25,937 nt of DNA. Origin: a virus. A program made the position numbers and the translations under genes. Below the pieces are notes generated by a model. It ran no database searches. It was not told the DNA's origin and worked only from the letters and a program-made list of their open reading frames with translations. How positions within the stretch are numbered: position 1 is the stretch's first letter; each line of letters starts with the position of its first letter. The stretch spans positions 1 to 25,937 of IMG/VR virus record IMGVR_UViG_3300025274_000060; one strand, given 5' to 3'. Shown piece by piece: positions 1 to 25,937 of the stretch.

Positions 1-1
1 T

Positions 2-223
2 AAAAAACCAATATGTACTGTTGTATTTAGGCATGATACTCCATCAGAAGAAGATATTCAAGCTGATGAATGCTATGTTGATGATTATTATGCTAATTTT
101 AAATGGGGTTCTATGAAATTACCAAAACTTCAATGGCATAGACTATTGGATCAACAAATAAAGTTGTTAGATTTTATAGAACGTGTAGAGAATTTTTGGA
201 AATCTAAAGGTTGCATTTTATAA
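2..223 (+). CDS. hypothetical protein, 5' end outside window
   Basis: The frame is open from the left edge to the TAA at 221-223, giving the last 73 residues of a protein whose start lies outside the window. The visible part has a central acidic, tyrosine-rich stretch and a C-terminal amphipathic helix rich in Q, K, L and E. No family is recognised. It is followed 15 bp later by a small membrane-protein gene with its own AAGGAG site. The frame is real in length and direction, but function is unknown. Confidence 0.6.
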   Translation, partial: KKPICTVVFRHDTPSEEDIQADECYVDDYYANFKWGSMKLPKLQWHRLLDQQIKLLDFIERVENFWKSKGCIL

Positions 224-238
224 ACAAGGAGATCAGAT

Positions 239-394
239 ATGAAACACTATTTTAATTCACTTTTCAATGAAAATCTAACATTTGTATTAGGTTGGGAAGC
301 TTTTGTATTATTTATGCTGTTGATGTTCATCTCAATCATCATCAGATTAAATAGAATCGAAAAGAAGCTGGAGGCAAAAAATGATAATACTTGA
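239..394 (+). CDS. small single-pass membrane protein (51 aa)
   Basis: ATG at 239 follows a strong AAGGAG site at about 227-232. The 51-residue product has a polar N-terminus of about 15 residues, one hydrophobic segment at about 17-38 (LGWEAFVLFMLLMFISII) and a short basic-acidic tail (RIEKKLEAK), as expected of a single-pass inner-membrane protein. Its 3' end overlaps the next small membrane gene by 14 bp. The role is unknown. Small membrane proteins here could act in host takeover, exclusion or lysis, but nothing in the sequence decides this. Confidence 0.6.
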   Translation: MKHYFNSLFNENLTFVLGWEAFVLFMLLMFISIIIRLNRIEKKLEAKNDNT

Positions 395-512
395 AATAAC
401 TGAATGGATTGTAGAAGCGTTTATGCTGGGATGGTTTATGTTGGGTGCTTCCATCTTTGTATTCTTTTTGACATTAGCATTCTTTGCTATTAAGGATCAT
501 AAGAACAAATGA
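381..512 (+). CDS. small membrane protein (43 aa)
   Basis: ATG at 381 is preceded by a GGAGG-like site (ctggagg at 368-374). The product is 43 residues and almost entirely one long hydrophobic segment, residues 9-37 (motifs WIVEAFMLGWFML and FVFFLTLAFFAI), ending in KDHKNK, so the C-terminus is probably cytoplasmic. The start lies inside the preceding membrane gene and the stop overlaps the next start by 4 bp (ATGA), so the three genes are probably translated together. Function is unknown. Confidence 0.6.
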   Translation: MIILEITEWIVEAFMLGWFMLGASIFVFFLTLAFFAIKDHKNK

Positions 513-730
513 AGATTCCATTCATAACTAAAATAAAAGAACTGAAAAATAAAGTTGGTGAACAGAATATTGCGATATCAGAAGCGGAAGGTGAAATAAT
601 ATTCTTAAAAGAAGAAACAAACAAAATGCGGATACAAATCGCCATGACTGAAAGGATACTGAAAGAAGGTGAATCAGGTAAAATCGCAAAACATCGAATG
701 ATCGAAACAATCTATAACATATTACGATGA
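509..730 (+). CDS. small coiled-coil protein
   Basis: The 73-residue product is highly charged. Residues 7-55 show the heptad-like spacing of a coiled coil (hydrophobic I/L/M at regular steps among E and K). No signal peptide or membrane segment is visible. The ATG overlaps the stop of the preceding membrane gene (ATGA), so translation is likely coupled. It may partner one of the small membrane proteins just upstream, but this is a guess from position. No family is recognised. Confidence 0.6.
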   Translation: MKIPFITKIKELKNKVGEQNIAISEAEGEIIFLKEETNKMRIQIAMTERILKEGESGKIAKHRMIETIYNILR

Positions 731-739
731 ACACATACT

Positions 740-1060
740 ATGGAAATACCAGACAATAACGGCTATGAATTTGAAGAAGCGGCAGATTTAGCCAAGAAAG
801 CAGTAAACAGATTAAATGTAACAAAAATAGCAGTAGAATATCTATTTGCCAGGGATGATTTTGATAGGGATGAAATGAGATATTGTAAAACGATTGAACA
901 AAAATGGCAGAATTTCACAACCGAACAGAAACAAATATTATTTTTTCATATTGTACAGGGATATTCATTCACAACTATAGGAAAATTAAACGGTTACACG
1001 CAACAAAACGCATCCAAAATCTTCCATAAAGCCTGTGAAATCATCCAAAATAACGTATAA
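740..1060 (+). CDS. helix-turn-helix protein, sigma region 4-like
   Basis: The product is 106 residues. The C-terminal half (about 58-104) reads as a sigma-70 region 4-like helix-turn-helix: FTTEQKQILFFHIVQGYSF, then TTIGKLNGYTQQNASKIF, then a final helix. The pattern of a hydrophobic first helix, 'QGYS', a turn at 'LNG' and a recognition helix 'TQQNASKIF' is typical of DNA-binding proteins that regulate phage late genes or act as small terminase subunits. It sits directly upstream of a 160-bp non-coding gap and the terminase genes, so late-gene control or recognition of packaging DNA are both possible. The sequence does not separate the two. Confidence 0.6.
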   Translation: MEIPDNNGYEFEEAADLAKKAVNRLNVTKIAVEYLFARDDFDRDEMRYCKTIEQKWQNFTTEQKQILFFHIVQGYSFTTIGKLNGYTQQNASKIFHKACEIIQNNV

Positions 1061-8482: not shown

Positions 8483-10750
8483 ATGGCAACATTAACAGGA
8501 CAAACTATTGCATCATCATATGAACAACTGCTTCATGTAGATACTGATGGTGGCGGCAATACAACAACTTTAGTTCCAGTAAAAGATGGTGATAATGGCA
8601 CAACCTTCGCAATGCAACTATCAACAACCACTATTTGTATTGATAACCCCACAGCAGATTCATCTACTCAAGGTGGTATTCTAAGACTACAATCTGATGA
8701 TGGTGCATTGATGCAGTCAGGCAGTAGACTTGGTGTTATTGAATTTGGTGGTGCTGAAGATTCAAGCAATACGATAACAGTTGGAGCAAGAATTGAAGCA
8801 GTAACAGATGCTCTTTGGGCGGCTGATGAGAATGGTGCTGATATGGTATTTTATACAACTGATGGTAATGCGGCTCAATCAGAGCATCTACGCATTAAAT
8901 CTGGTAGTGCAGTCAATTTGGTTATTACGGGTGGGTCGACCCATTCACAAGTTGATTTTGCGGGTAGTGATGGAACGAAGGATGGTTCTATTTATGCAGA
9001 AGCTACTAATATAGGTTTTTTAGATGATGATGGTAACTGGGCAGTTAGAGCTGAAACTGATGTTCAGACATCATTATATGTAAATAATTCGATTAAACTT
9101 TTAGTCGATGCCAACTCCCGAATCTCGCTCGGGAATAATGATATTAGTGCAGTTACTTCAACGACAATATTTGGGTATTTAGCTGGACAGGATATTGAAA
9201 GTGGAGCAACTCACAATACTTACTTTGGGAGTTTAGCTGGTAGTGAAAATACCACTGGTGATAATAATACATATATAGGTGCAAATTCAGGATTAGGTGT
9301 TAATGGAAATGCAAACAATGGTAACACAGGAATAGGTAAAAATACTTTAACAGCAGTCACTACTGGAGGCAGTAATGTCTGTGTTGGTGTAAATGCTGGC
9401 GATTCAATTACTACTGCAAATCACTCTATTTTTATCGGCTCATCAGCGGGGGATTCTCTTACAGTTACTGGTGGTGGTAATGCTTATGATGGTCAGATTG
9501 GAATCGGAACATCTGCCCTTGCCGCACTCACATCGGGCATTGGCAACGTGGCTGTGGGGTATCAAGCAATGGATGCTAATCAGACTTCAGATTACAATAC
9601 AGCAGTAGGTACATCTGCACTTGGAGCTCTTACTAATGATGGTGATACTGGAAATACTGCTGTTGGTTATAATGCTGGGGCGGCAGTTACATCTGGAGTT
9701 AATAATACTTTAATTGGAACTGTCGTAGGCGATGGGTTTGATGCTGAAAGAGATAATACTTTTGTTGGCTATGCGTCTGGTACTGGGGCAATAAATGGTG
9801 CTGATTATTGTGTCGCAATAGGCTCAAGTTCATTTCAAGGTGCGGCAACGCAAGATGGGACTGTAGCGATTGGATACCAATCTCTCACAGCCCTCACAAC
9901 TGGTGCTGGGAACACTGCTGTGGGTTATCAAGCTTTAAAAGCCTGTACAGATAATTCATATAATACGGCAGTTGGTTATGCCGCCGCAGATGCTATCCCA
10001 TCTGGTGCATTGGCGAATACAGCCGTTGGATATGATGCTTTAGGTGCTGGAAATAATGCGACTACAGACAACAATACTTGTTTCGGATTTGAAGCTGGGA
10101 ATGTAATCACATCAGGTAGTCAGAATACGATTATAGGTAGTACAACAGACCCATCGGCTAATACTGGTACTAATCAAACAGTAATAGGATATAACACAAC
10201 AGGACAAGGAGACGATACAGTAACACTTGGTAATGCTTCTGTTATAAATGTCTTTGCATCTCAAGATGGTGGAGCAAGAGTTCATTGTGCTGGTATTGCG
10301 TTTGCTGGAACTCAGATTGCAAGTGCAGATGTAAACACTCTTGACGATTATGAAGAAGGCTTAGACACAGTGGCGATAGCCGCTGGTTCTGGTACTATTA
10401 CTATCCACTCCTCAAATGACCAAATTTCATATACTAAAATTGGAAGAGTCGTGCATATTACTGGTAGGCTTAATGTTAGTGCAATTTCATCACCAAGTGG
10501 AGATTTAAGTATTACTGGTCTGCCGTTTGCGGCGGCTGATACAACCGAGACTTCTGAATTAGGAGCTGGAGGTGTTTATTTAGACAATGCTAATGGGGCT
10601 ATTACTACCTATGCTATTTGCTTTGTTTCGACAGGTACGACAACTTTAATTCTTAGAGAAGCTGGTGGTACTGGTAATGGTGCAGATTTAGCCGCACATA
10701 TTGATACTGATACAAAAATAAACATAGAGATTACATATTTTACAACATAA
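8483..10750 (+). CDS. repeat-rich fibre protein (755 aa)
   Basis: Residues 1-240 form an N-terminal region (MATLTGQTIASSYEQLL..., RLGVIEFGGAEDSSN) of a type seen at the start of phage fibre proteins. About 244-580 consist of roughly fifteen degenerate repeats built on NTAVGYxA / GxGxNxxxAxTTG, as in trimeric fibres with a beta-roll shaft. The C-terminus (620-755) starts with LDDYEEG, the joint found before receptor-binding domains of many tail fibres, then ISYTKIGRVVHITGRL. It has no S74 chaperone. It lies in the head module rather than with tail tip genes, so it may be a head fibre. Trimerisation and host or surface binding are inferred. Confidence 0.8.
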   Translation: MATLTGQTIASSYEQLLHVDTDGGGNTTTLVPVKDGDNGTTFAMQLSTTTICIDNPTADSSTQGGILRLQSDDGALMQSGSRLGVIEFGGAEDSSNTITVGARIEAVTDALWAADENGADMVFYTTDGNAAQSEHLRIKSGSAVNLVITGGSTHSQVDFAGSDGTKDGSIYAEATNIGFLDDDGNWAVRAETDVQTSLYVNNSIKLLVDANSRISLGNNDISAVTSTTIFGYLAGQDIESGATHNTYFGSLAGSENTTGDNNTYIGANSGLGVNGNANNGNTGIGKNTLTAVTTGGSNVCVGVNAGDSITTANHSIFIGSSAGDSLTVTGGGNAYDGQIGIGTSALAALTSGIGNVAVGYQAMDANQTSDYNTAVGTSALGALTNDGDTGNTAVGYNAGAAVTSGVNNTLIGTVVGDGFDAERDNTFVGYASGTGAINGADYCVAIGSSSFQGAATQDGTVAIGYQSLTALTTGAGNTAVGYQALKACTDNSYNTAVGYAAADAIPSGALANTAVGYDALGAGNNATTDNNTCFGFEAGNVITSGSQNTIIGSTTDPSANTGTNQTVIGYNTTGQGDDTVTLGNASVINVFASQDGGARVHCAGIAFAGTQIASADVNTLDDYEEGLDTVAIAAGSGTITIHSSNDQISYTKIGRVVHITGRLNVSAISSPSGDLSITGLPFAAADTTETSELGAGGVYLDNANGAITTYAICFVSTGTTTLILREAGGTGNGADLAAHIDTDTKINIEITYFTT
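9214..10227 (+). repeat. degenerate tandem repeats in fibre gene
   Basis: About fifteen imperfect in-frame units of roughly 20-28 codons occur here, each containing a version of AATACTGCTGTTGGTTAT encoding NTAVGY. Clear copies are near 9544, 9597, 9651, 9913, 9961 and 10018. Copies differ enough at the DNA level to resist simple recombination, but unit number could still vary between related phages. Confidence 0.75.
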
Positions 10751-17121: not shown

Positions 17122-18648
17122 ATGGCAGATAAAAAACTAAATATAAAAGTCTCAACAACTGGTGCGAGTAAGTCACAGAAAAATTTAAAAGGTTTATCTG
17201 GATCAATAAAGACTTTAGGAAAAGCGGCATTAGCTACTGGTGCGGCTTATTTCGCTACAAGGGGATTAATAAACGGATTCAGTTCAGCATTGAGATTGGC
17301 TGGTGAACAGGAACAAGCTGAAAAGAAACTTGAAGTAGCATTGGGCAAGACATCAAAGGCATTATTAGATCATGCTTCTTCTTTACAGAAAGTGACTACT
17401 TTCGGTGATGAAGCTATCATTGGTGTCCAGTCCAGTTTAGCCGCATTCATAAAAAACGAAGATCAAATCAAGAAAGCAACAGAAGCCACATTAGATATGG
17501 CGGTTGCTATGGGGATGGATTTAAAAGCGGCTGGTGATTTAGTTGCAAAGACTCTTGGATCATCCACAAATGCCATGAGCCGTTATGGTATCCAGGTTGA
17601 AGGTGCAGTAGGATCAACAGAAAGACTTGAATCATTAACGAATAATGTTGCTACTCTTTTTGGTGGTCAGGCATCAGCACAAGCTGATACTTATGCTGGT
17701 TCTGTTCAACAGATGAAAAACTCTTTAGGTGATATGGCAGAACAGATTGGTGCAATCCTGATTCCAGCTTTCGAAAAATTAGAACCTCATTTAAGTCTTG
17801 CAATAGATTTCTGGGGTAAATATTTTGGAACACTTAAAGATGGTGATGCTATAAATAGTCAATTCTCTACACAAGTTCAAGCAATAGATAGACAAATAGA
17901 AAAACTAAATGGAAGAGTAGAATATCAATTAGCACTAATGCGAGACCAAGAGTCACTTAGGGAAAGAGCCATAATAGCCGAAAATAGCATTAGTAAGCAG
18001 AAGGCAGAAGAAATGCTGGCGATTGCAAATTTAAATGCTCAAATAAATAAATTAAATAATGCCAAAGAAACACAACTGAAAATAGAAAAAGCCTTAAACG
18101 AAACTACCCAATTAAATCTTCAATTAAGACAAGCCGAAATTGATATGGGGATTGAATATGTAAAAGTAATTGATGTTACTCGTGGTGCAATAAAAAACAA
18201 ATACGCAGAAGAAATGAAGGGAGCCGCATTATCTGGGCAATCTGCAATCGAAGCCATGAAATCAGTAGTTCGAGCAGAAACAATGGAAGCTGTAGCTGGT
18301 TATCTTGCGAGTGTATTAAAAACAGTTCCATTCCCAGCTAATTTAGTTCTGGCGGCCGCTGGTGGTGGAATCGTGGCTGGTCTTATGGATAAGGCAATGG
18401 GTGCTATTCCTAATAAATTCGCCACAGGAGCCGACTTTGTTACTTCTGGTGCTACACCTATGCTTGTAGGAGAAAGTGGCCCAGAACGCGTATCTGTCAC
18501 ACCCTTAACACCAGGAATGAATCAGAAAGGGCCTCAAGGAATTACATTAAATATAAGTGGCGGTTTAATAGATGATTCTTATGTAAGGAATGTTTTGATA
18601 CCAGCGTTGAATAAGGCCACATCTTTAGGAAGAAGGATTAATGCTTAG
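17122..18648 (+). CDS. tape measure protein
   Basis: This protein sets tail length and exits with the DNA. The 508-residue product has a basic N-terminus (KKLNIKVSTTGASKSQKNLK), a hydrophobic Gly/Ala segment at about 33-55, a long helical middle with coiled-coil runs (about 245-330) and a hydrophobic stretch near 400-425 (LVLAAAGGGIVAGLMDKAMG). The C-terminus carries the familiar tape measure ending KFATGADFVTSGATPMLVGE then SGPERVSVTPL. At about 1.5 angstrom per residue it predicts a tail near 75 nm. It overlaps the next gene by 8 bp. Confidence 0.92.
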   Translation: MADKKLNIKVSTTGASKSQKNLKGLSGSIKTLGKAALATGAAYFATRGLINGFSSALRLAGEQEQAEKKLEVALGKTSKALLDHASSLQKVTTFGDEAIIGVQSSLAAFIKNEDQIKKATEATLDMAVAMGMDLKAAGDLVAKTLGSSTNAMSRYGIQVEGAVGSTERLESLTNNVATLFGGQASAQADTYAGSVQQMKNSLGDMAEQIGAILIPAFEKLEPHLSLAIDFWGKYFGTLKDGDAINSQFSTQVQAIDRQIEKLNGRVEYQLALMRDQESLRERAIIAENSISKQKAEEMLAIANLNAQINKLNNAKETQLKIEKALNETTQLNLQLRQAEIDMGIEYVKVIDVTRGAIKNKYAEEMKGAALSGQSAIEAMKSVVRAETMEAVAGYLASVLKTVPFPANLVLAAAGGGIVAGLMDKAMGAIPNKFATGADFVTSGATPMLVGESGPERVSVTPLTPGMNQKGPQGITLNISGGLIDDSYVRNVLIPALNKATSLGRRINA

Positions 18649-20944
18649 TTTTGATTCGGCATTATCTAATGCACTCAAACTCGGTAATACAACAGCCTTC
18701 TGGGTTTTAAAACTATATTATAATGCGGAAGGTTCTGGTGATTTTATAGGGGTAAGTGATACTCACCGTGTAGATGGTTCTGATATATATTACGGCCTTG
18801 TTTCTTCATGGGGTAATTATTCTCAGTCTTTGGATTTTTTTAATTTTACAACTTCAACAGGGAATATGTCGGTTCGTTTAATCAATACGGATAAATCAAT
18901 TCAGGGCGGGCGATTCTCTGATCTGTTCAGCACTAATAATTTTGCAAATAGAAAATGGGAATTATTCTTAAATACATCTCAAGCGGGAACTTATGATACT
19001 GCTGTACGGATGATTGGAACGGGGATTATCTCAGGGAACATAAAATACGATACAAACTCTGTTTCATTATCATTATTAGATTTTGATTCTAAATATCATC
19101 AAGAACTTCCAACTACAGTAGTTGTATCGAGTACATATTCTAATGCACCTGAGAAAAATATCAATAAACCGATTCCAATGTTTTATGGTGATTGTCACGA
19201 TAAAGATTCAAGTAGTATTGGAACAATTCCTACATCTGGTGCTCAATTTGATCGCTATTATACAAAAGGAAAATTCCCCGCTATCATTACAGATAAATTT
19301 GATTCAACGAATGCAAATATAGAAGCTTTGGTAGATAATGAAACCCCGCACACATTGGATACTGAAAACATATATATGAAAGTTGATGATAATTTTGCGG
19401 TTTGTCTCAATACCACCCAATCTGGAAATAAAATAACGGTTAGTGATGTGGATTGGCGAGTCTATATTACACCAACTCATCATAATACTTATTCAAGTGG
19501 CACGAATTATGGACAGACAGTCAATCGTGATTTTAGGATTTCAGCACCATATACTTTATCAGCTTCAGATGGAACAGGCACAACAGGATGGCGTATTCCC
19601 AAGATACCAAAATTGGGTGAGTTTACAGACATAAAAGTTTTAATCGCACTCAGGGATATGGCAACTGACCCTGGTTCTACAATCAATGCTTTTTTTATAT
19701 CGAAAGCAGATGGAACATCTATAGCCGATTTATCTGGAAGCTGGAGTGACGGGAATGATGCAGATGTTACATCATCGAGCATAGCTGGACTCTATTCATC
19801 ACCTGAAAAAGATAGTTGGGATTTTGAAAATAGTTTCCTTTTGAAACTTACAGATGCGTCTGGTGATTCAAGTGTTAAGATTGCCGAAATAGCCCTTGAA
19901 ATACAATTTGAGCCAAGCCAGATATTTGAAAAGATTATAAGTGAACCACATGAAGTTACTATTGCATATTCTGAGTTTTATACATCTACTATTAATGAAG
20001 ATGGTGAACAAGTACCAAGCACAAGAAGATTAAACAGGACACGAAGCGTTCAAACCCCTGTTATTAGTGATTATATATATTTTTCAGGTAAAGGAAGAAA
20101 ATATCCTGCATTTATTGATGCTGATTCAAGAAACCAGGGATACAATGAAACTGATTTGATTGAAAATCCAGTCTATATTATTGAGGATGTTTTGAGAACA
20201 GAATTATCTCTTACTTCTTCTGAAATAGATTATGCTTCTTTTGATACTTCTGGCAATACGACAGACGGTTATTTAGGAGATATTTATGATGATGCTGTAG
20301 GTGATGTTAAGTTTGCTTTTTCTCAATATAAATTTATCAATTCAAAAGATTTCATAAGTAGAATATGTAAGCAGATTCTTTCATGGGTGTTTATAAGTGG
20401 TGATGGGAAATTTAAGATTAAGACACTTCGCAGAGTAGGGGATTATGATTCAGCAGATAAGACGATTGATTTCAATGATATAAATTTAAAATCTATTTCT
20501 AAAACTTCGTTGGGTGGAGTAAGAAATGATATTACAGTCAATTATAATTTTGATTATGGTGAGGATCAATTTTTATCGAATGCAAATCCCACAGCCGATT
20601 CCACAAGTAAAGGAACTACTGTTAATGGTTATAATGTTTCTGATGGCTTAAAATTAGAAATAGATGCAGACGTATTAGATGATGATACGGCGGGGGCGAC
20701 TTCAGGAAAAGGATTGGCCGATGCTTATATGACTATTTTCAAGGATAGGAAGGTTATTCTGGATTTTGATTGTATTCGCCCATTATATAATGATCTTGAG
20801 ATTGGCGATATTATTACATTTGATAATTGGGATACTAATTTAAAACTATATGGAACAGCATTCAGTTCTGATTATTTCATTGTCCAGGATATTGCAAAAA
20901 GACCAGAAGGCTGTTCCATAAAATCAATAAAGGTAGATGCATAA
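18641..20944 (+). CDS. tail tip/baseplate hub-like protein
   Basis: The 767-residue product directly follows the tape measure gene, the usual place for distal tail and hub proteins. The N-terminal ~200 residues show strand-rich segments (TAFWVLKLYY, YYGLVSSWGNYSQSLDFFNF) and a segment GNIKYDTNSVSLSLLDFDSK then KPIPMFYGD, which recalls hub-type proteins ('G.PIP..YG'). A C-terminal part (about 560-767) with FKIKTLRRVGDYDSADKTID and IGDIITFDNW resembles the last domain of such hubs. Its role is probably tail-tip scaffold and attachment platform. No enzymatic motif is seen. Confidence 0.7.
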   Translation: MLSFDSALSNALKLGNTTAFWVLKLYYNAEGSGDFIGVSDTHRVDGSDIYYGLVSSWGNYSQSLDFFNFTTSTGNMSVRLINTDKSIQGGRFSDLFSTNNFANRKWELFLNTSQAGTYDTAVRMIGTGIISGNIKYDTNSVSLSLLDFDSKYHQELPTTVVVSSTYSNAPEKNINKPIPMFYGDCHDKDSSSIGTIPTSGAQFDRYYTKGKFPAIITDKFDSTNANIEALVDNETPHTLDTENIYMKVDDNFAVCLNTTQSGNKITVSDVDWRVYITPTHHNTYSSGTNYGQTVNRDFRISAPYTLSASDGTGTTGWRIPKIPKLGEFTDIKVLIALRDMATDPGSTINAFFISKADGTSIADLSGSWSDGNDADVTSSSIAGLYSSPEKDSWDFENSFLLKLTDASGDSSVKIAEIALEIQFEPSQIFEKIISEPHEVTIAYSEFYTSTINEDGEQVPSTRRLNRTRSVQTPVISDYIYFSGKGRKYPAFIDADSRNQGYNETDLIENPVYIIEDVLRTELSLTSSEIDYASFDTSGNTTDGYLGDIYDDAVGDVKFAFSQYKFINSKDFISRICKQILSWVFISGDGKFKIKTLRRVGDYDSADKTIDFNDINLKSISKTSLGGVRNDITVNYNFDYGEDQFLSNANPTADSTSKGTTVNGYNVSDGLKLEIDADVLDDDTAGATSGKGLADAYMTIFKDRKVILDFDCIRPLYNDLEIGDIITFDNWDTNLKLYGTAFSSDYFIVQDIAKRPEGCSIKSIKVDA

Positions 20945-21996
20945 TGGCAAATCAAAATATAAGAATTCCAAGATTTTATCCTTGTTTGGCAAATCACAGG
21001 ATGGCAACTGGAACAGCTCAGAATGCCAACTTTGATTTGATGAGTGGCTCAAACTTAATCAGCACATTTACACAAGGCTCTGAGCCTGAATTATTTGATT
21101 TAAAGCCAATGAATCAATGTAGCTGGGATACATCTTCAAACACTACCTTACAAGATGACCATGTTTTAGTGAACATGGATACTGGCGGTGGATTCAATGT
21201 GGATTTTGTCGCAATATTAAATCATAATATGGCTACTGCTGATGCCAAGTTTAAAGTTGGGCATAGTGGTACTGAAACTGACGTGAATCGTGCTGATATG
21301 CCAACTGATACAGATATAGCGAGTGTGACCGAAGTAGTAAACGCAGACACAATTAATGGCAATGTTGTTACACCAGGAACAGATGGTTCTACCATTATCA
21401 CTTTCACAGCTTCAAGTAACAGATATTGGGGTATTCAATTTGAAGGTATCACGGGACAAACAAATACGGCGAGTGGAGATGGTAAGTTTGATACCGCTAA
21501 CGATTTAAAAATTGGTTGCGTAATCTTCGGTGAATTCTACGATATGCCGAGATCACCAGATTTAAGTGTGAATCGTTCTATCATGTATGATGGTGTCAAT
21601 GTACAAGAATCCGCTGGTGGACAAAGGTACGGTAATGCAAAGAATCGAGGTCGTAGATATGTAGGTACAGGCAATCAGACACCATTTGTACAGGCATCTC
21701 AAAGCTATTATGTATATGGTGGCAGAATGGCTTATGATATGAATTTTTCATACTTATCATCGGATGATGTTATGCCTTCAGATTACAAATCAGAAGTAAC
21801 TGGAAGTGATACAGTTGTAGCCGATGTTTGGAATAGGACGAGTGGTAATTTATTGCCTTTTATATTCACATCGGATGGTACTTCTACAGCAGAATCAGAT
21901 TATCTATTCGCAAGGTTTGGGCAAAATAGTCTTGATATGAGCCAAGTGGCTTTGGATACATTCAATATATCGCTTCGTCTTGAGGAAGAATTTTGA
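20944..21996 (+). CDS. tail protein at the end of the structural operon
   Basis: The 350-residue beta-rich product starts in a TAATG junction with the hub gene. It has short strand-turn patterns throughout (FNVDFVAILNHNM, STIITFTASSNRYWGIQFEG, CVIFGEFYDMPRSPDLSVNR) and a Tyr/Gly-rich middle (ASQSYYVYGGRMAYDMNFSY). The segment 'VLVNMDTGGGFNVDFVAILN ... NRYWGIQFEG' looks like a carbohydrate-binding-type jelly roll, suggesting a tail-tip or receptor-facing component. It is the last gene before a strong terminator. No exact family is recognised. Confidence 0.62.
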   Translation: MANQNIRIPRFYPCLANHRMATGTAQNANFDLMSGSNLISTFTQGSEPELFDLKPMNQCSWDTSSNTTLQDDHVLVNMDTGGGFNVDFVAILNHNMATADAKFKVGHSGTETDVNRADMPTDTDIASVTEVVNADTINGNVVTPGTDGSTIITFTASSNRYWGIQFEGITGQTNTASGDGKFDTANDLKIGCVIFGEFYDMPRSPDLSVNRSIMYDGVNVQESAGGQRYGNAKNRGRRYVGTGNQTPFVQASQSYYVYGGRMAYDMNFSYLSSDDVMPSDYKSEVTGSDTVVADVWNRTSGNLLPFIFTSDGTSTAESDYLFARFGQNSLDMSQVALDTFNISLRLEEEF

Positions 21997-22028
21997 TTTA
22001 ACATATCCATCATTCCTGTCAAATAAAG

Positions 22029-22054
22029 GCGGCCAGCAATGGTCGCTTTTTTTT
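22029..22054 (+). terminator. rho-independent terminator closing the structural operon
   Basis: The stem GCGGCC (22029-22034) pairs with GGTCGC (22041-22046; one G-T pair) around a 6-nt loop and is followed by eight T. It ends the long structural transcript 33 bp after the last tail gene and is followed at once by a promoter-like sequence. Confidence 0.92.
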
Positions 22055-22055
22055 C

Positions 22056-22084
22056 TTGTTTATTAACTGTTTGGATATTATACT
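22056..22084 (+). promoter_or_regulatory. sigma-70-type promoter for the early-type module
   Basis: TTGTTT (-35, 22056-22061) and TATACT (-10, 22079-22084, 5 of 6 consensus) are 17 bp apart, immediately after the terminator. A start site near 22091 would place the first GATGAGACA repeat at the very 5' end of the message. Confidence 0.6.
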
Positions 22085-22090
22085 CTGAAT

Positions 22091-22196
22091 GATGAGACAC
22101 TTAATAAACAAACATTACGACACACCAGGGGGGCTTCTCGGTCAACCGACCTATGTCTCATCGCATCCCAAGCCCCCCGTGTCAAAGGATGAGACA
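22091..22196 (+). promoter_or_regulatory. switch-like structured leader with GATGAGACA repeats
   Basis: The leader contains GATGAGACA at 22091-22099, its reverse complement TGTCTCATC at 22154-22162, and GATGAGACA again at 22188-22196 within the ribosome-binding site of the next gene. The inverted copy can pair with either direct copy (9 bp each), so it could hide or release that site. It sits in the loop of a strong hairpin: GACAC/GTGTC (22119-22123, 22179-22183) plus GGGGGGCTT/AAGCCCCCC (22128-22136, 22170-22178), with an inner TCGG-TCAA-CCGA hairpin. A DNA operator is the alternative reading. Confidence 0.65.
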
Positions 22197-22367
22197 ATGA
22201 AACAAACAATAATAAATAGCTTTATTGATAAATCAGTTAAAGCACCAAGTTATGAGCCAAATGAACTGACAAGGAAAAACTTTGGTGATTGGATAACTGC
22301 CAACCCTCTCGGCACATACAAAGAATGGAAAGAATATCTTGAACTATTAGTTAAGGGGGGTGAATGA
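22197..22367 (+). CDS. small hypothetical protein (56 aa)
   Basis: The frame is open from ATG 22089, but that codon lies at or before the predicted transcription start and its first 36 codons run through the structured leader. The ATG at 22197, with AAAGGA at 22184-22189, is preferred. The 56-residue product is helical and ends in KEWKEYLELLVKGGE. As first gene after the switch-like leader it would be the controlled one. Family not recognised. Confidence 0.55.
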   Translation: MKQTIINSFIDKSVKAPSYEPNELTRKNFGDWITANPLGTYKEWKEYLELLVKGGE

Positions 22368-22368
22368 T

Positions 22369-22590
22369 ATGAGATATACACTTGTATCACAAAGATTTGT
22401 TGGCGAACCACTTGAGGTTCACAATTCAGCCTGTTCGGATATATCAAAAAAAATAAAGAATGGTGCTTACGCCATATTGGAAAACACGACAAAAGAATCA
22501 TTATCAGATGAAATTAATTACCTTATTGAAAATGATCAAATCATAGAAAAAGACATCAAGCACTTTAATTGCTGTAAAGGGGGTGAGTGA
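22369..22590 (+). CDS. small hypothetical protein (73 aa)
   Basis: ATG 22369 is chosen because AAGGGGGGTGA lies at 22353-22363 at proper spacing; a GTG at 22360 lies inside that site. The 73-residue product has a beta-rich start (MRYTLVSQRFVGEPLEVHNS), helices and a C-terminal CC pair (HFNCCKGGE). It is one of a run of small coupled early-type genes. Its stop forms TGATG with the next start. Function unknown. Confidence 0.6.
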   Translation: MRYTLVSQRFVGEPLEVHNSACSDISKKIKNGAYAILENTTKESLSDEINYLIENDQIIEKDIKHFNCCKGGE

Positions 22591-22931
22591 TGAAACTAAT
22601 ATCTATCGGTAAAAAACTATCATGGGAATCATCTGAATTGGTGATTTTAAGATTATTAAAAAATAAATTATTATCAATCTATTCGGATACCGAATTGGAA
22701 TTAGACGGTTTGAATCATAGTCACTTAGTTGATCTTTTGAACAACGTCAGTATAAAAGTTGAAACCATAAACAAGATCATGGATCAGGAATTGGAAAGAT
22801 TAATTAAACGTGATTCGGATATTTTCAAAGATCATAGATGTTCACATTGTCAAAGTGATAAAATCTATGTTTGCGATCCTTGCATGGATATATGGGCTGA
22901 TGAAGTCAAGAGGGTGGCCCTGAATGGCTGA
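22590..22931 (+). CDS. small protein with C-terminal zinc ribbon
   Basis: The 113-residue product has a helical N-terminal region and a C-terminal CxxC-x7-CxxC pair (C84, C87, C95, C98: CSHCQSDKIYVCDPCMDIW), a likely zinc ribbon that could bind nucleic acid. AAAGGGGGTGAG at 22576-22587 supports ATG 22590 in a TGATG junction, rather than the GTG three bases earlier. Phage proteins of this sort may act as RNA- or DNA-binding regulators. No specific family is recognised. Confidence 0.62.
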   Translation: MKLISIGKKLSWESSELVILRLLKNKLLSIYSDTELELDGLNHSHLVDLLNNVSIKVETINKIMDQELERLIKRDSDIFKDHRCSHCQSDKIYVCDPCMDIWADEVKRVALNG

Positions 22932-23061
22932 GAACGTGAAATTTACTATCATAAAGCCCAAAACTATGAAAAGCCACATATATGTTAGGCTAATGAGGAA
23001 ACTCGTCAAAATCCTTGAAAAATTGGATGTTGGCGTTAAAATAAAAGAGGTGAAAATATGA
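22924..23061 (+). CDS. small basic protein (45 aa)
   Basis: ATG 22924 overlaps the upstream stop by 8 bp and the stop overlaps the next ATG (ATGA). The 45-residue product is strongly basic (MAENVKFTIIKPKTMKSHIY, then VRLMRKLVKILEKLDVGVKI) with two probable strands and one helix. The basic charge would suit a nucleic-acid-binding role, but nothing more can be said. Confidence 0.5.
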   Translation: MAENVKFTIIKPKTMKSHIYVRLMRKLVKILEKLDVGVKIKEVKI

Positions 23062-23297
23062 TTGTGCCATTTGATTTTAAATATCATGCTGAAATCCAAT
23101 ACGAAACTGAATTCGGTTTAGCCTTTTGTAATGCAAACGGGAATACAATGGATGAATTATTATGGGATATAGACTTTAGGTTCGATCAATACAAACACCG
23201 ATTGCCGCAATTATCTTTGGTTCTGAAAAATCCGAACGGCCAGAAGATCGATATTACTAAAGATGTATTAAAAAAACTAAAAAAGGGGGCATCATGA
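23058..23297 (+). CDS. hypothetical protein (79 aa)
   Basis: AAGAGGTGA at 23045-23053 precedes the ATG. The 79-residue product has strands (DFKYHAEIQYETEFGLAFCN), a helix (TMDELLWDIDFRFDQY) and a basic C-terminus (ITKDVLKKLKKGAS). Coupled to neighbours on both sides by ATGA overlaps. No family recognised. Confidence 0.6.
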   Translation: MIVPFDFKYHAEIQYETEFGLAFCNANGNTMDELLWDIDFRFDQYKHRLPQLSLVLKNPNGQKIDITKDVLKKLKKGAS

Positions 23298-23509
23298 ATT
23301 GGACTTGTTGTGAATGTGAAAACCAGGTAGATGAAAGATTTTATGATCTGGATGAAAGAACTTGTGATGATTGCATGAATCCAGCAGAAATCATGATTGA
23401 TAAATTGGATTTATGGATAGGCACGTTTATGTTCTATCTTCAAAAGATTGCCCCATATTTAATTGTGGGGATGATAATTCATTTAATAATAAACCTATGG
23501 AGGCTATAA
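23294..23509 (+). CDS. zinc-ribbon protein with membrane anchor
   Basis: The 71-residue product has an N-terminal zinc ribbon of two CxxC pairs (C5-x2-C8 and C24-x2-C27: TCCECENQVDERFYDLDERT then CDDC) and a C-terminal membrane span at about 43-66 (GTFMFYLQKIAPYLIVGMII then HLIINLW). The cytoplasmic ribbon would face nucleic acid or another protein at the membrane. In layout the ribbon recalls small CxxC...CxxC proteins such as Mu Com, which controls mom translation, but the membrane anchor has no counterpart there. AAAAGGGGG at 23280-23288 precedes the start. Confidence 0.62.
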   Translation: MNWTCCECENQVDERFYDLDERTCDDCMNPAEIMIDKLDLWIGTFMFYLQKIAPYLIVGMIIHLIINLWRL

Positions 23510-23510
23510 T

Positions 23511-23990
23511 ATGCCAGATAAACCAAAAATAACATTCAATCCAGGTGAGCCTGTGATTGTCACTTTGAAGTTCGATAAAGGATTCGAAAATGAAGGAAAA
23601 CATGGAACGTATTTTTCGCATACTGTTTTGAATAATAACGTAGATACACTCATGTTTGCATCACCAGATTTGAACGATATGATCACTTCTGATTATGGAC
23701 GTGGTGATACTCTCAGGATCATCAAACATGATACCAATCCTACAACTTGGGGTGTTCATAAAGAAGGCGAATCATCGGTTAAAACTGTTGCTAATGTGAA
23801 ACCAGTAGAGGTAACGAATGATGCAAGGACTCACGATATTCATCGCCAGGTAGCGGTTAAAATTGTCTGTCAGAATACTGATTTTTCTGAAAAAGAAATA
23901 TCAGAAGAACAATATGATTTGATGTATGAGAATGTGCAGATTATCTTGAATCTGATTGAAAATAAAAAAGATGGTTCATTGCCCTTGTAA
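23511..23990 (+). CDS. putative OB-fold, single-strand DNA-binding-like protein
   Basis: GGAGG at 23499-23503 gives a strong start. The first ~95 of 159 residues show a strand pattern like an OB fold (GEPVIVTLKFDKGFENEGKH, TYFSHTV, NVDTLMFASPDL, RGDTLRIIKHDTNPTTWGVH). The C-terminal part has a helix starting HDIHRQVAVKIVCQN and another, EEQYDLMYENVQIILNLIE, as in phage replication-associated accessory proteins. Neighbours (nuclease, replication protein) support a DNA-metabolism role. The fold is inferred by eye. Confidence 0.4.
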   Translation: MPDKPKITFNPGEPVIVTLKFDKGFENEGKHGTYFSHTVLNNNVDTLMFASPDLNDMITSDYGRGDTLRIIKHDTNPTTWGVHKEGESSVKTVANVKPVEVTNDARTHDIHRQVAVKIVCQNTDFSEKEISEEQYDLMYENVQIILNLIENKKDGSLPL

Positions 23991-24357
23991 AGTGAAGAAG
24001 TCTGAAAAGAAAAAACTGCATTCTCTGGTTCGGCAATACGTTATCCAGAGAGATAAATGCTGTTTAAAGTGTGGGAAGTCTGATAGGTTGCACGCTTCCC
24101 ACATCTATCCAAGAGGCAAATATCCTAAGATGCAGTTCAATTTGGAGAATGTGAAGGCTTTATGTGTTGGCTGTCATCTCTATTGGTGGCACAAACACCC
24201 CATAGATGCACGAGAATGGGCGGAAAAGACATTAGGCAAGGCTTTACTCATGCGATTGAAGAAACAGGCGAACACGATAAATAAGGAACCCTGGAATTAT
24301 AAAGATATTAAATTGAGCATAGAAAAAGAATTAAAATTGATGCTGGAAAATGAATAA
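23971..24357 (+). CDS. HNH nuclease, NinG-like
   Basis: ATG 23971 is preferred over the earlier TTG at 23956; it overlaps the upstream gene by 20 bp. The 128-residue product shows a zinc-stabilised HNH fold: C31-x2-C34, H41/H44 in LHASHIYPRG, N57/N60 in FNLENV, and C65-x2-C68-H69. The layout RDKCCLKCG...HASH...FNLENVKALC..CH resembles lambda NinG/Rap-type recombination nucleases and homing-type HNH enzymes. A role cutting branched DNA in replication or recombination is likely given the neighbours. Its stop lies inside the beginning of the mom-like frame. Confidence 0.75.
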   Translation: MVHCPCKVKKSEKKKLHSLVRQYVIQRDKCCLKCGKSDRLHASHIYPRGKYPKMQFNLENVKALCVGCHLYWWHKHPIDAREWAEKTLGKALLMRLKKQANTINKEPWNYKDIKLSIEKELKLMLENE

Positions 24358-25120
24358 TATAAATGCGACTCAAGAATCAAGAGAGATTCACTTGAATACC
24401 ATTCAAGAGGGCCTGGGGCGGTGCCAGGGAGTCGCTCAAGAATTTAGTGTGAGAAGTATCAAATCTAAACAAACATACGATTGGCTATTAAATAAACATT
24501 ATGCAAAAAGAATACCGAGCATTTCTCATGCTTTTGGTTTATATGATTACAGGAATCTATTAAATGGTGTCTGTACTTTTGGGATTCCAGCTGTATCACA
24601 ATGGCAGAATGAATATATTGAATTAAATAGATTATGTATCAATAATAATTTAGGAAAAAACGTGTTATCGTATTTTGTATCACAATGTCTTAAAAGTATG
24701 TCAAATGAAAGAATTATTGTTAGTTTTGCCGATCCAAATCAAAATCATCAAGGATACATATATCAAGCTACTAATTGGTTATATACTGGAATTGGATCAG
24801 ATTCTAATAAGTATTATTTAAACGGGAAAGATTATCATCCACGACATATTAACAAAACAGAACAGTATTTTATCAATTTAATAAATAACAATGGAGGTAC
24901 ATTTCATCAGAATAAATCAATTCGTGAGATGTGGAATTCTATCGGTGGTTACATAGAAAAACAAAAAGGAAAACATCGTTATTTTTTTACAAAATCAAAA
25001 TCACATAGAAAATATTTATTAAAAAAATATGAGATTAAACCATATCCAAAAGGTGAAAATATAAGATACGATGCAAGTTATAAACCTATAATACAAACCG
25101 AATTATTCACAACTATATAA
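24350..25120 (+). CDS. mom: Mom-family adenine modification protein (GNAT fold)
   Basis: The product (256 residues from ATG 24350) matches Mom, the GNAT-fold enzyme that adds a glycine-sized group to adenine in phage DNA and shields it from restriction. Family segments are HYAKRIPSISHAFGLYDYRN (50-69), GVCTFGIPA (73-81), ELNRLCINN (91-99), VSFADPNQNHQGYIYQATNW (124-143) and the C-terminal KHRYFF...PYPKGENIRYDASYKP. The usual GNAT CoA loop (Q/RxxGxG/A) is degenerate here (NNLGKN). Codons 6-29 coincide with a tRNA-like RNA, and family similarity begins only at V34, so GTG 24449 (223 residues) may be the true start. The gene looks very AT-rich (11 G+C in the 60 bases from 24961), whereas the cloverleaf is GC-rich. 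Confidence 0.85.
   Translation: MNNINATQESREIHLNTIQEGLGRCQGVAQEFSVRSIKSKQTYDWLLNKHYAKRIPSISHAFGLYDYRNLLNGVCTFGIPAVSQWQNEYIELNRLCINNNLGKNVLSYFVSQCLKSMSNERIIVSFADPNQNHQGYIYQATNWLYTGIGSDSNKYYLNGKDYHPRHINKTEQYFINLINNNGGTFHQNKSIREMWNSIGGYIEKQKGKHRYFFTKSKSHRKYLLKKYEIKPYPKGENIRYDASYKPIIQTELFTTI
24365..24436 (+). ncRNA. tRNA-Gly-like cloverleaf RNA, anticodon ACC
   Basis: The 72 nt fold as a complete cloverleaf with all stems Watson-Crick. Acceptor GCGACTC/GAGTCGC (24365-24371, 24429-24435); AA linker; D-arm GAATC/GATTC (24374-24378, 24385-24389) with a 6-nt loop; one A; anticodon arm CTTGA/TCAAG (24391-24395, 24403-24407) with 7-nt loop ATACCAT, U33 and anticodon ACC (glycine); AGGG variable loop; T-arm CCTGG/CCAGG (24412-24416, 24424-24428) with 7-nt loop. 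Position 73 is U. G1-C72, C2-G71, G3-C70, U73, C35 and C36 match bacterial glycyl-tRNA-synthetase identity. The D-loop (AAGAGA) lacks GG and the T-loop (GGCGGTG) lacks TTC. CCA is not encoded. Confidence 0.78.
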
Positions 25121-25131
25121 GGATGAGACAA
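25121..25131 (+). promoter_or_regulatory. third GATGAGACA copy at a ribosome-binding site
   Basis: AAGGATGAGACAA at 25119-25131 is identical over 13 nt to 22185-22197 and, like that copy, sits as ribosome-binding site just before an ATG (25133). It could be bound by the same protein, or paired in trans by the TGTCTCATC of the leader at 22154-22162. Confidence 0.5.
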
Positions 25132-25132
25132 A

Positions 25133-25789
25133 ATGCCTAAAAGATATACAGACACCGATAAATGGAAAAAGATTTGGTTCCGTAAATTGAAGAATGATCA
25201 TAAAGTATTCTGGATGTATGTATTGGATCAATGTGATCACGCTGGAATCTGGGAAGTGGATTTTGAACTGGCTTCATATTTCTGCAACGGAATCAAAGAA
25301 ACGGAAATCAGAGAAACATTTGTAAAACAATATCATGAGTTCGATGATGGCAAAAGATGGTTCATTAAAGACTTCATAGAATTTCAATATCGTGGTTTAG
25401 ATGAATCCAATAGAGTCCATAATTCTGTAATTAATATCCTAAAACGACATGGGTTGTTTAAGGGTCTTATAAGGCCCTTATATGAACCTAAAGCTAAAGA
25501 CAAAGATAAAGAACAAGCTAAAGATCAAGAGAAAGATAAAGAAAAAGGGAAAAATTCTAAAAAAAATCAGCTTAAAAAAATAGAATTAGAATTGAATATA
25601 CTACAGGCTGAATTTGATGCGGTTGATGTTTCGATTGAATTCGATAAATTTCAGGACTACTTAAAAGCAAACGGAAAAAAATACGCTAATTATAAATCTG
25701 CATTTCGGAATTGGTTGAGATCAGATTTTATCAAACCTAAGGAAACGTATGAAAAAAACATCTATACAGGAAGCAAGTTTAAGAGTTGA
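25133..25789 (+). CDS. replication initiation/replisome organiser-like protein
   Basis: The 218-residue product starts with a winged-helix-like domain (about 1-115): KWKKIWFRKLKNDHKVFWMY, LDQCDHAGIWEVDFELASYF, KRWFIKDFIEFQYRGLDESN, a pattern typical of phage replication initiators. A lysine/aspartate-rich linker follows (about 118-150). The C-terminal segment EFDKFQDYLKANGKKYANYK then SAFRNWLRSDF resembles the DnaD/DnaT-type end that contacts single-stranded DNA or the helicase loader. It would open the origin and recruit replication proteins. AAGGATGAG at 25119-25127 is the ribosome-binding site. Confidence 0.75.
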   Translation: MPKRYTDTDKWKKIWFRKLKNDHKVFWMYVLDQCDHAGIWEVDFELASYFCNGIKETEIRETFVKQYHEFDDGKRWFIKDFIEFQYRGLDESNRVHNSVINILKRHGLFKGLIRPLYEPKAKDKDKEQAKDQEKDKEKGKNSKKNQLKKIELELNILQAEFDAVDVSIEFDKFQDYLKANGKKYANYKSAFRNWLRSDFIKPKETYEKNIYTGSKFKS

Positions 25790-25937
25790 TGATCTATTTG
25801 AATTCCTGGATATAAAAGGATCACGGCCATTATATAACGAATTGATCGGCCTGATCATGGAATACTCATTGGATACCGTAAAGGCTGGATGGGTTGATAT
25901 TATGCACGAATGCTCGCCGCCGAATGGCCAGCTATCT
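25749..25937 (+). CDS. hypothetical protein, 3' end outside window
   Basis: ATG 25749 follows an AAGGA site at 25740-25744 and overlaps the replication gene by 41 bp, an unusually long overlap for this genome. Sixty-three codons are visible (MKKTSIQEASLRVDDLFEFL, then LYNELIGLIMEYSLDTVKAG), helical in character, before the window ends. Position after the replication initiator could suit a helicase-loader or similar partner, but no motif confirms this. Confidence 0.55.
   Translation, partial: MKKTSIQEASLRVDDLFEFLDIKGSRPLYNELIGLIMEYSLDTVKAGWVDIMHECSPPNGQLS

Follow-up and report, generated by a model that had tools for sequence, protein, structure and literature searches.

Mom modifies adenine in DNA, and its product, N6-carbamoylmethyl-adenine, is an isomer of N6-glycyl-adenine, with a glycine-sized group of +57 Da. 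In phage Mu the mom gene is controlled by Com, a translational regulator. A glycyl carrier outside translation is known from the staphylococcal cell wall, where a non-proteogenic tRNA-Gly, a substrate of FemXAB, serves a GNAT-related transferase. The phage RNA described here would likewise be a glycyl carrier outside translation, but the staphylococcal tRNA has a normal T-loop and a peptidoglycan role, whereas the RNA in question comes from phages and is linked to an enzyme that modifies DNA. TacT, a toxin of the GNAT fold, acts on Gly-tRNA-Gly, which it reads through U73 and G71 (PMC9976931); it acetylates the glycine, whereas Mom modifies DNA adenine. The bacterial glycine identity set defined by experiment consists of U73, G1-C72, C2-G71, G3-C70, C35 and C36, and the tRNA-Gly consensus includes a (G10-Y25):G45 triple (PMC9976931). 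U73 goes with the alpha2beta2 type of bacterial GlyRS (PMC3990555). The donor used by Mom has been predicted in a review to be an acyl-CoA such as glycyl-CoA (PMC7824862), and a published tRNA donor for Mom was not found in the open-access literature, though a paper may exist elsewhere.

Our data indicate that a subset of Mom phages encodes a tRNA-Gly-like RNA, usually beside the mom gene. The window, i.e. the whole stretch of 25,937 bases that we analysed, comes from an IMG/VR virus record and has the following features around this RNA.

23956..24357, + strand: HNH/NinG-like junction endonuclease gene, its stop overlapping the mom ATG
24350..25120, + strand: mom, GNAT-fold DNA adenine modification enzyme (Pfam PF25680, phrog_1384)
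24365..24436, + strand: tRNA-Gly-like cloverleaf RNA, G1 to U73 (from the fold and family covariation)
24365..24371, + strand: 5' strand of the acceptor stem, GCGACTC, then AA; G1, C2 and G3 lie in glycine identity pairs (from the sequence and the identity set in PMC9976931)
24374..24389, + strand: D arm, stem GAATC/GATTC, loop AAGAGA without G18G19, then A; G10 and Y25 are invariant in the family
24391..24407, + strand: anticodon arm, stem CTTGA/TCAAG, loop ATACCAT
24398..24400, + strand: anticodon-like triplet ACC; C35 and C36 are invariant in 30/30 members and the first base varies
24408..24411, + strand: variable loop AGGG, a sequence that two of the search patterns fix
24412..24428, + strand: T arm, stem CCTGG/CCAGG, loop GGCGGTG (GGCRGUU in the family)
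24429..24435, + strand: 3' strand of the acceptor stem, GAGTCGC
24436..24439, + strand: discriminator U73 (T in the DNA), then CAA

The geometry given in the first-pass annotation was verified in full: stems of 7/5/5/5 bp with 22/22 Watson-Crick pairs, spacings of 2/1/4/0, two 7-nt loops, the triplet ACC and U73. With its 4-nt variable loop the window cloverleaf is 72 nt long. The segment 24365-24436 has a minimum free energy of -29.3 kcal/mol (z = -4.1 relative to dinucleotide-shuffled sequences, none of which equals the native value), and the strict tRNA cloverleaf has -27.7 kcal/mol; the minimum-energy fold adds to the anticodon stem two A-U pairs taken from its loop. The annotation had also called such a fold very unlikely by chance, and our estimate agrees: about 3e-7 all-Watson-Crick cloverleaves are expected in the window at its base composition, counting 22 Watson-Crick pairs in any of ~32 tRNA-like geometries. 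Across 369 kb of fetched viral DNA, no cloverleaf other than the window element and its homologues had as few as 0-3 bad pairs. ARAGORN made no tRNA call on the cloverleaf in the window or in family members. Rfam, including RF00005, gave 0 matches at the gathering threshold; at E<=10 there was still none for the window, and the members L110 and L092 gave only chance-level matches. On the same window, positions 8483-10750 encode a long tail-fibre-like protein with NTAVGYQAL-type repeats.

The gene over the cloverleaf, which had been called mom-like with the fold at its 5' end, is correctly placed in the window and encodes a true Mom (PF25680, E 2e-34, 119.4 bits with a cut-off of 27.1). Other RNA-linked proteins also match PF25680. 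The window mom frame is open through the RNA from the ATG at 24350, the conserved domain begins at ~24443, and a GTG at 24449 is a possible later start; the HNH/NinG-like gene and mom are probably co-transcribed. A fold search with the AlphaFold-predicted structure of this Mom (pLDDT 85) found Mu Mom 8bv8 at the top (Z 18.7), followed by CoA-dependent GNATs; no aminoacyl-tRNA-using enzyme was among the matches listed, which settles nothing. A serine corresponding to Mu S124, the residue mutated in the inactive 8bv8 protein, is aligned in 8/8 of the Moms compared. Ordinary GNATs bind CoA through the motif R/Q-x-x-G-x-G/A; past strand 4 of the Mom alignment we read D..P.N..S at the place expected for this motif. 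The linked protein thus belongs with Mu Mom in fold and in its serine; the two systems differ in that the RNA is absent from Mu and from the other cultured Mom phages tested and that Mu relies on Com.

Pattern scans of IMG/VR found cloverleaf homologues in ~41 other viral contigs. Exact scans with single hairpins and a geometry scan led to L042 and L013, which share the loops and are fully paired with stems of other sequence. Scanning with a loop pattern added L053, L055 (on the L013 contig), L057, L058 and L059. When the first seven sequences were aligned, 99.2% of the pair cells were paired, 14/22 pairs were doubly changed, and the covariation score was 0.676 vs 0.202 in shuffles. A last pattern, which left the anticodon arm free, matched 41 stretches, compared with about 2 expected by chance by our estimate, and 34 of the stretches are new members; L080 was reached independently through its Mom protein. 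In the alignment of 29 distinct members, 96.9% of the cells are paired, 16/22 pairs are doubly changed, compensatory cells number 182 vs 51.5 in shuffles, and the covariation score is 0.769 vs 0.178 shuffled, with every shifted register far lower. Compensatory changes in folds beside mom-family genes, which the first-pass annotation had predicted, are thus strongly present, in seven and then in 29 distinct sequences. The last pattern fixed AAGAGAGA, AGGG and GGCRGT, and conservation at these places is partly ascertained; it left the identity positions except G45 free, and the anticodon loop is fixed in the seven members that came from the earlier pattern.

Outside these viral contigs the searches gave little. 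BLASTN of the element against phages and plasmids returned chance matches only, and a pattern scan of genome contigs returned 8 chance matches, none with a cloverleaf fold. A covariance model found nothing at E<=1e-6 in 1,094 genomes from three phyla, which shows little given the strict filters and the lack of a positive control. The model matches the window element at 100.5 bits, the window being one of its own training sequences. As far as the available library shows, the cloverleaf is a member of an RNA family undescribed in the accessible literature, and the structured RNA at 24365-24436 is real beyond reasonable doubt.

The fold is kept on the sense strand as RNA, because the 638 pair cells include 19 G.U/U.G and 0 A.C. 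In 33 members the mom frame (frame 0) has no stop within the RNA; in these, third positions that coding leaves free, at C36 and U73, are fixed, with NCC at 34-36 and GCT at 70-72 in 33/33 each. L013, L053, L057 and L081 have a stop codon inside the RNA. Thirty IMG/VR relatives of the window Mom (42-52% identity) begin 0-10 codons before the V.SI motif, i.e. after the RNA position, and the 72 nt are therefore not conserved Mom coding sequence. Upstream of these 30 relatives lie other genes and no adjoining cloverleaf, the exception being L013, whose cloverleaf is ~440 nt upstream. Pfam gave no support for codons 6-33 as a domain, and a reading of them as an N-terminal HTH-like peptide was dropped on that ground. 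In L042 (1364-1460) a stop in the RNA puts the mom start inside or just after the RNA, where only TTG or rarer start codons are available.

The likeness to bacterial tRNA-Gly, e.g. the GCC type, lies in the 7/5/5/5 cloverleaf and in the nucleotides read by GlyRS. G1, C2, G71, C72, U73, C35, C36, G10 and Y25 are invariant in 30/30 distinct members, and G45 is found in 29/30. The full GlyRS identity set noted earlier for the window is there, and in the family U73, G1-C72, C2-G71, C35 and C36 hold throughout; the 3-70 pair does not, being G3-C70 in 24/30 and C3-G70 in 6/30. CCA is encoded in many members, as in bacterial tRNA-Gly: U73 is followed by CCA in 19 of 41 members, by CAA in 12 (including the window) and by other letters in 10. 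The covariance model, built from phage RNAs only, had one match at E<0.01 among 24 whole bacterial genomes, and this was a host tRNA-Gly(GCC) at 30 bits. These features suggest that the RNA very probably derives from or mimics tRNA-Gly and is recognised by GlyRS.

The RNA also departs from tRNA-Gly in several features. The lack of G18G19 and the altered T-loop, first remarked in the window, are shared by the family. The family T-loop is GGCRGUU and not UUCRANU, with C56 and R57 kept and T54, U55 and A58 changed to G; U8, A14 and G18G19 are absent or free, so that C56 and R57 alone are kept of the elbow and core set. The variable loop has 4 nt, the seventh acceptor pair is often G.A, and ARAGORN and the Rfam tRNA model miss the RNA. 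The U33 reported earlier is present in the window and is kept in only 19/30 members. Position 34 may be A, C or U; given this variation and the inconstant U33, the anticodon is not maintained for decoding.

The window and its twin contig L034 are taken as one here, which gives 42 contigs. In 38 of them the RNA abuts or overlaps a Mom-family gene, and all 36 pairs measured share a strand; none of 19 control contigs carrying chance pattern matches has a mom. The RNA lies 5' of mom in the window and in L042, and at the mom 3' end in the other linked contigs. The earlier placement of the element, hidden at the 5' end of the gene, is hence right for the window and does not extend to the family, whose RNA is mostly at the 3' end or stands alone. 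The RNA-linked Moms are 20-50% identical to each other and are scattered over at least five places of the Mom tree, interspersed with RNA-free Moms (6 changes, of which supported branches force at least 5). In the sister phages L058/L059 and L053/L055 the mom subfamily has been exchanged while the RNA stayed near-identical, and identity resumes 0-6 nt from the RNA 5' end. The RNA thus persists regardless of which Mom accompanies it. These exchanges also mark a modification-gene exchange spot bounded by the RNA, with conserved flanks. On the 4.5-kb contig of L055 (121-2183), two different mom genes flank the RNA and a RusA-like gene. As for the twin contig, L034 (1-952, 3487-11128) matches window 1-952 and 18296-25937; it passes the window's right end by 2.5 kb and then continues into window 1-952 in the opposite relative orientation, through an inversion or an assembly joint.

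The RNA is an accessory of a subset of Mom phages, and most Mom phages are without it. The family was not matched in Mu, 13 other cultured Mom phages or 20 IMG/VR Mom contigs, so Mom in general does not depend on it. A geometry-only cloverleaf scan near mom genes that lack the family found AT-rich chance folds only. A tRNA near the mom of phage Melnitz was at first taken for a tRNA-Gly and is a tRNA-Trp. The Mom of Methylophilales phage Melnitz-3 (MZ577098, 69571-70380), annotated as DUF465, is 43% identical to the cloverleaf-linked type.

Four copies of the RNA (L084, L092, L093 and L112) stand alone, and none of them is covered by a long ORF. In L092 the cloverleaf is preceded by TTGACT-N18-TATATT; behind it come first a second hairpin RNA and then a strong hairpin with a run of eight T. 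L084 is arranged alike as judged by eye, with a promoter-like site and a T-rich terminator. There are mom genes elsewhere on these contigs (three for L084, one for L092 and two for L093); L093 ends just past the RNA, and the L112 contig is a fragment with the RNA 105 nt from its end. The second hairpin RNA (L092:1637-1720 and L084:1206-1320), lying between cloverleaf and terminator, is conserved as GAGAGAAC..CATACTT..CAGTCCCTC..GTTCTCTC, and Rfam gives no convincing match for it. A third structured element possibly precedes the cloverleaf in L084. The 113-kb contig of L084, which includes the regions L116 and L122, encodes three mom genes, a tRNA-Arg, a tmRNA and the stand-alone cloverleaf.

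The interpretation in the first-pass annotation, a non-translational glycine carrier, is supported as the best hypothesis. From its linkage, the RNA quite likely serves Mom; we also lean towards a non-ribosomal glycine carrier that would be charged by host GlyRS and donate glycine to Mom. In the window and in most members the RNA would be part of the mom transcript, and stand-alone copies would be transcribed from a promoter of their own; host tRNA-processing enzymes would excise it. Charging by the host glycyl-tRNA synthetase is proposed because the bacterial glycine identity nucleotides are kept. The charged RNA would stay out of translation, as G18G19, T54/U55/A58, U8 and U33 are missing or free. 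Mom would then take the glycyl group and build it onto N6 of adenine in phage DNA, and a rearrangement inside Mom, or a variant product, would reconcile the glycyl with the carbamoylmethyl group. A broader proposal, which in our judgement could go either way, is that Mom may be an aminoacyl-tRNA:DNA transferase taking its carbamoylmethyl group from tRNA-borne glycine, with one subset of phages using a dedicated tRNA-Gly invisible to the ribosome and Mu and the rest using host Gly-tRNA. Several points count against the carrier role: Mom phages without the RNA would need host Gly-tRNA or some other donor, the window member and several others have no encoded CCA, and the donor predicted in print is an acyl-CoA such as glycyl-CoA (PMC7824862). 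Its non-canonical elbow may also make the RNA a poor substrate for RNase P, RNase Z and the CCA-adding enzyme.

The main rival to the carrier reading is cis-acting control, in which Mom or GlyRS would bind the mimic on the mom mRNA and tune or shut down a toxic enzyme. ThrRS binds a tRNA-like leader of its own mRNA, and Com provides a precedent for control of mom. The adjoining, same-strand position of 38/42 copies, the tight control of the toxic Mu mom (PMC12707154) and the L042 start codon at the RNA all fit such a role. However, the copies lie on either side of mom, U73 with an encoded CCA (19/41) has no clear use in a leader, and the four stand-alone copies, at least two of them with their own promoter-like site and terminator, speak against it, so that we consider cis control unlikely. 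The RNA could also be a decoy tRNA-Gly for T-box switches or for host defences and toxins such as anticodon nucleases and TacT-like GNAT toxins. Defence-related tRNAs are common in phages and the nucleotides read by TacT, U73 and G71, are kept exactly (PMC9976931), but a decoy would leave the near-complete linkage to divergent Moms unexplained, and we find this reading rather improbable.

Readings that dispense with an RNA function fare worse. A folded single-strand recombination site (attC-like) or a homology anchor for mom cassette exchange would account for the mom swaps in L058/L059 and L053/L055, where identity resumes so close to the RNA 5' end. Such a DNA-level element has little probability: the G.U cells without A.C point to RNA, the exact tRNA geometry and glycine identity set would be unexplained, the stand-alone copies look transcribed, and no integrase was seen adjoining the cloverleaf. 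A chance fold or a conserved protein tail, for which the frame open in 33 members could speak, is already refuted by the massive covariation, the internal stops of four members, the non-coding copies L084 and L092 and the fixed wobble positions. The window element has a 9-bp direct repeat, CTCAAGAAT, with copies 66 bp apart, and no near empty site was found for it. An in-frame palindromic insertion of the Rickettsia type with target duplication is unlikely, as covarying homologues are without the repeat arrangement.

The finding brings to light ~30 distinct sequences of an RNA family overlooked by ARAGORN and Rfam. We know of no earlier tRNA-like RNA that serves DNA modification specifically. 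Should the mechanism hold, an aminoacyl-tRNA mimic devoted to DNA hypermodification would be a new kind of system. It would also provide a small, portable glycyl carrier, perhaps independent of translation. For the donor, which the review found gives only as a prediction (PMC7824862), a tRNA mimic with glycine identity and genetic linkage to Mom is a testable candidate. If true, the carrier reading would explain the origin of Mom's DNA modification and link aminoacyl-tRNA chemistry to anti-restriction.
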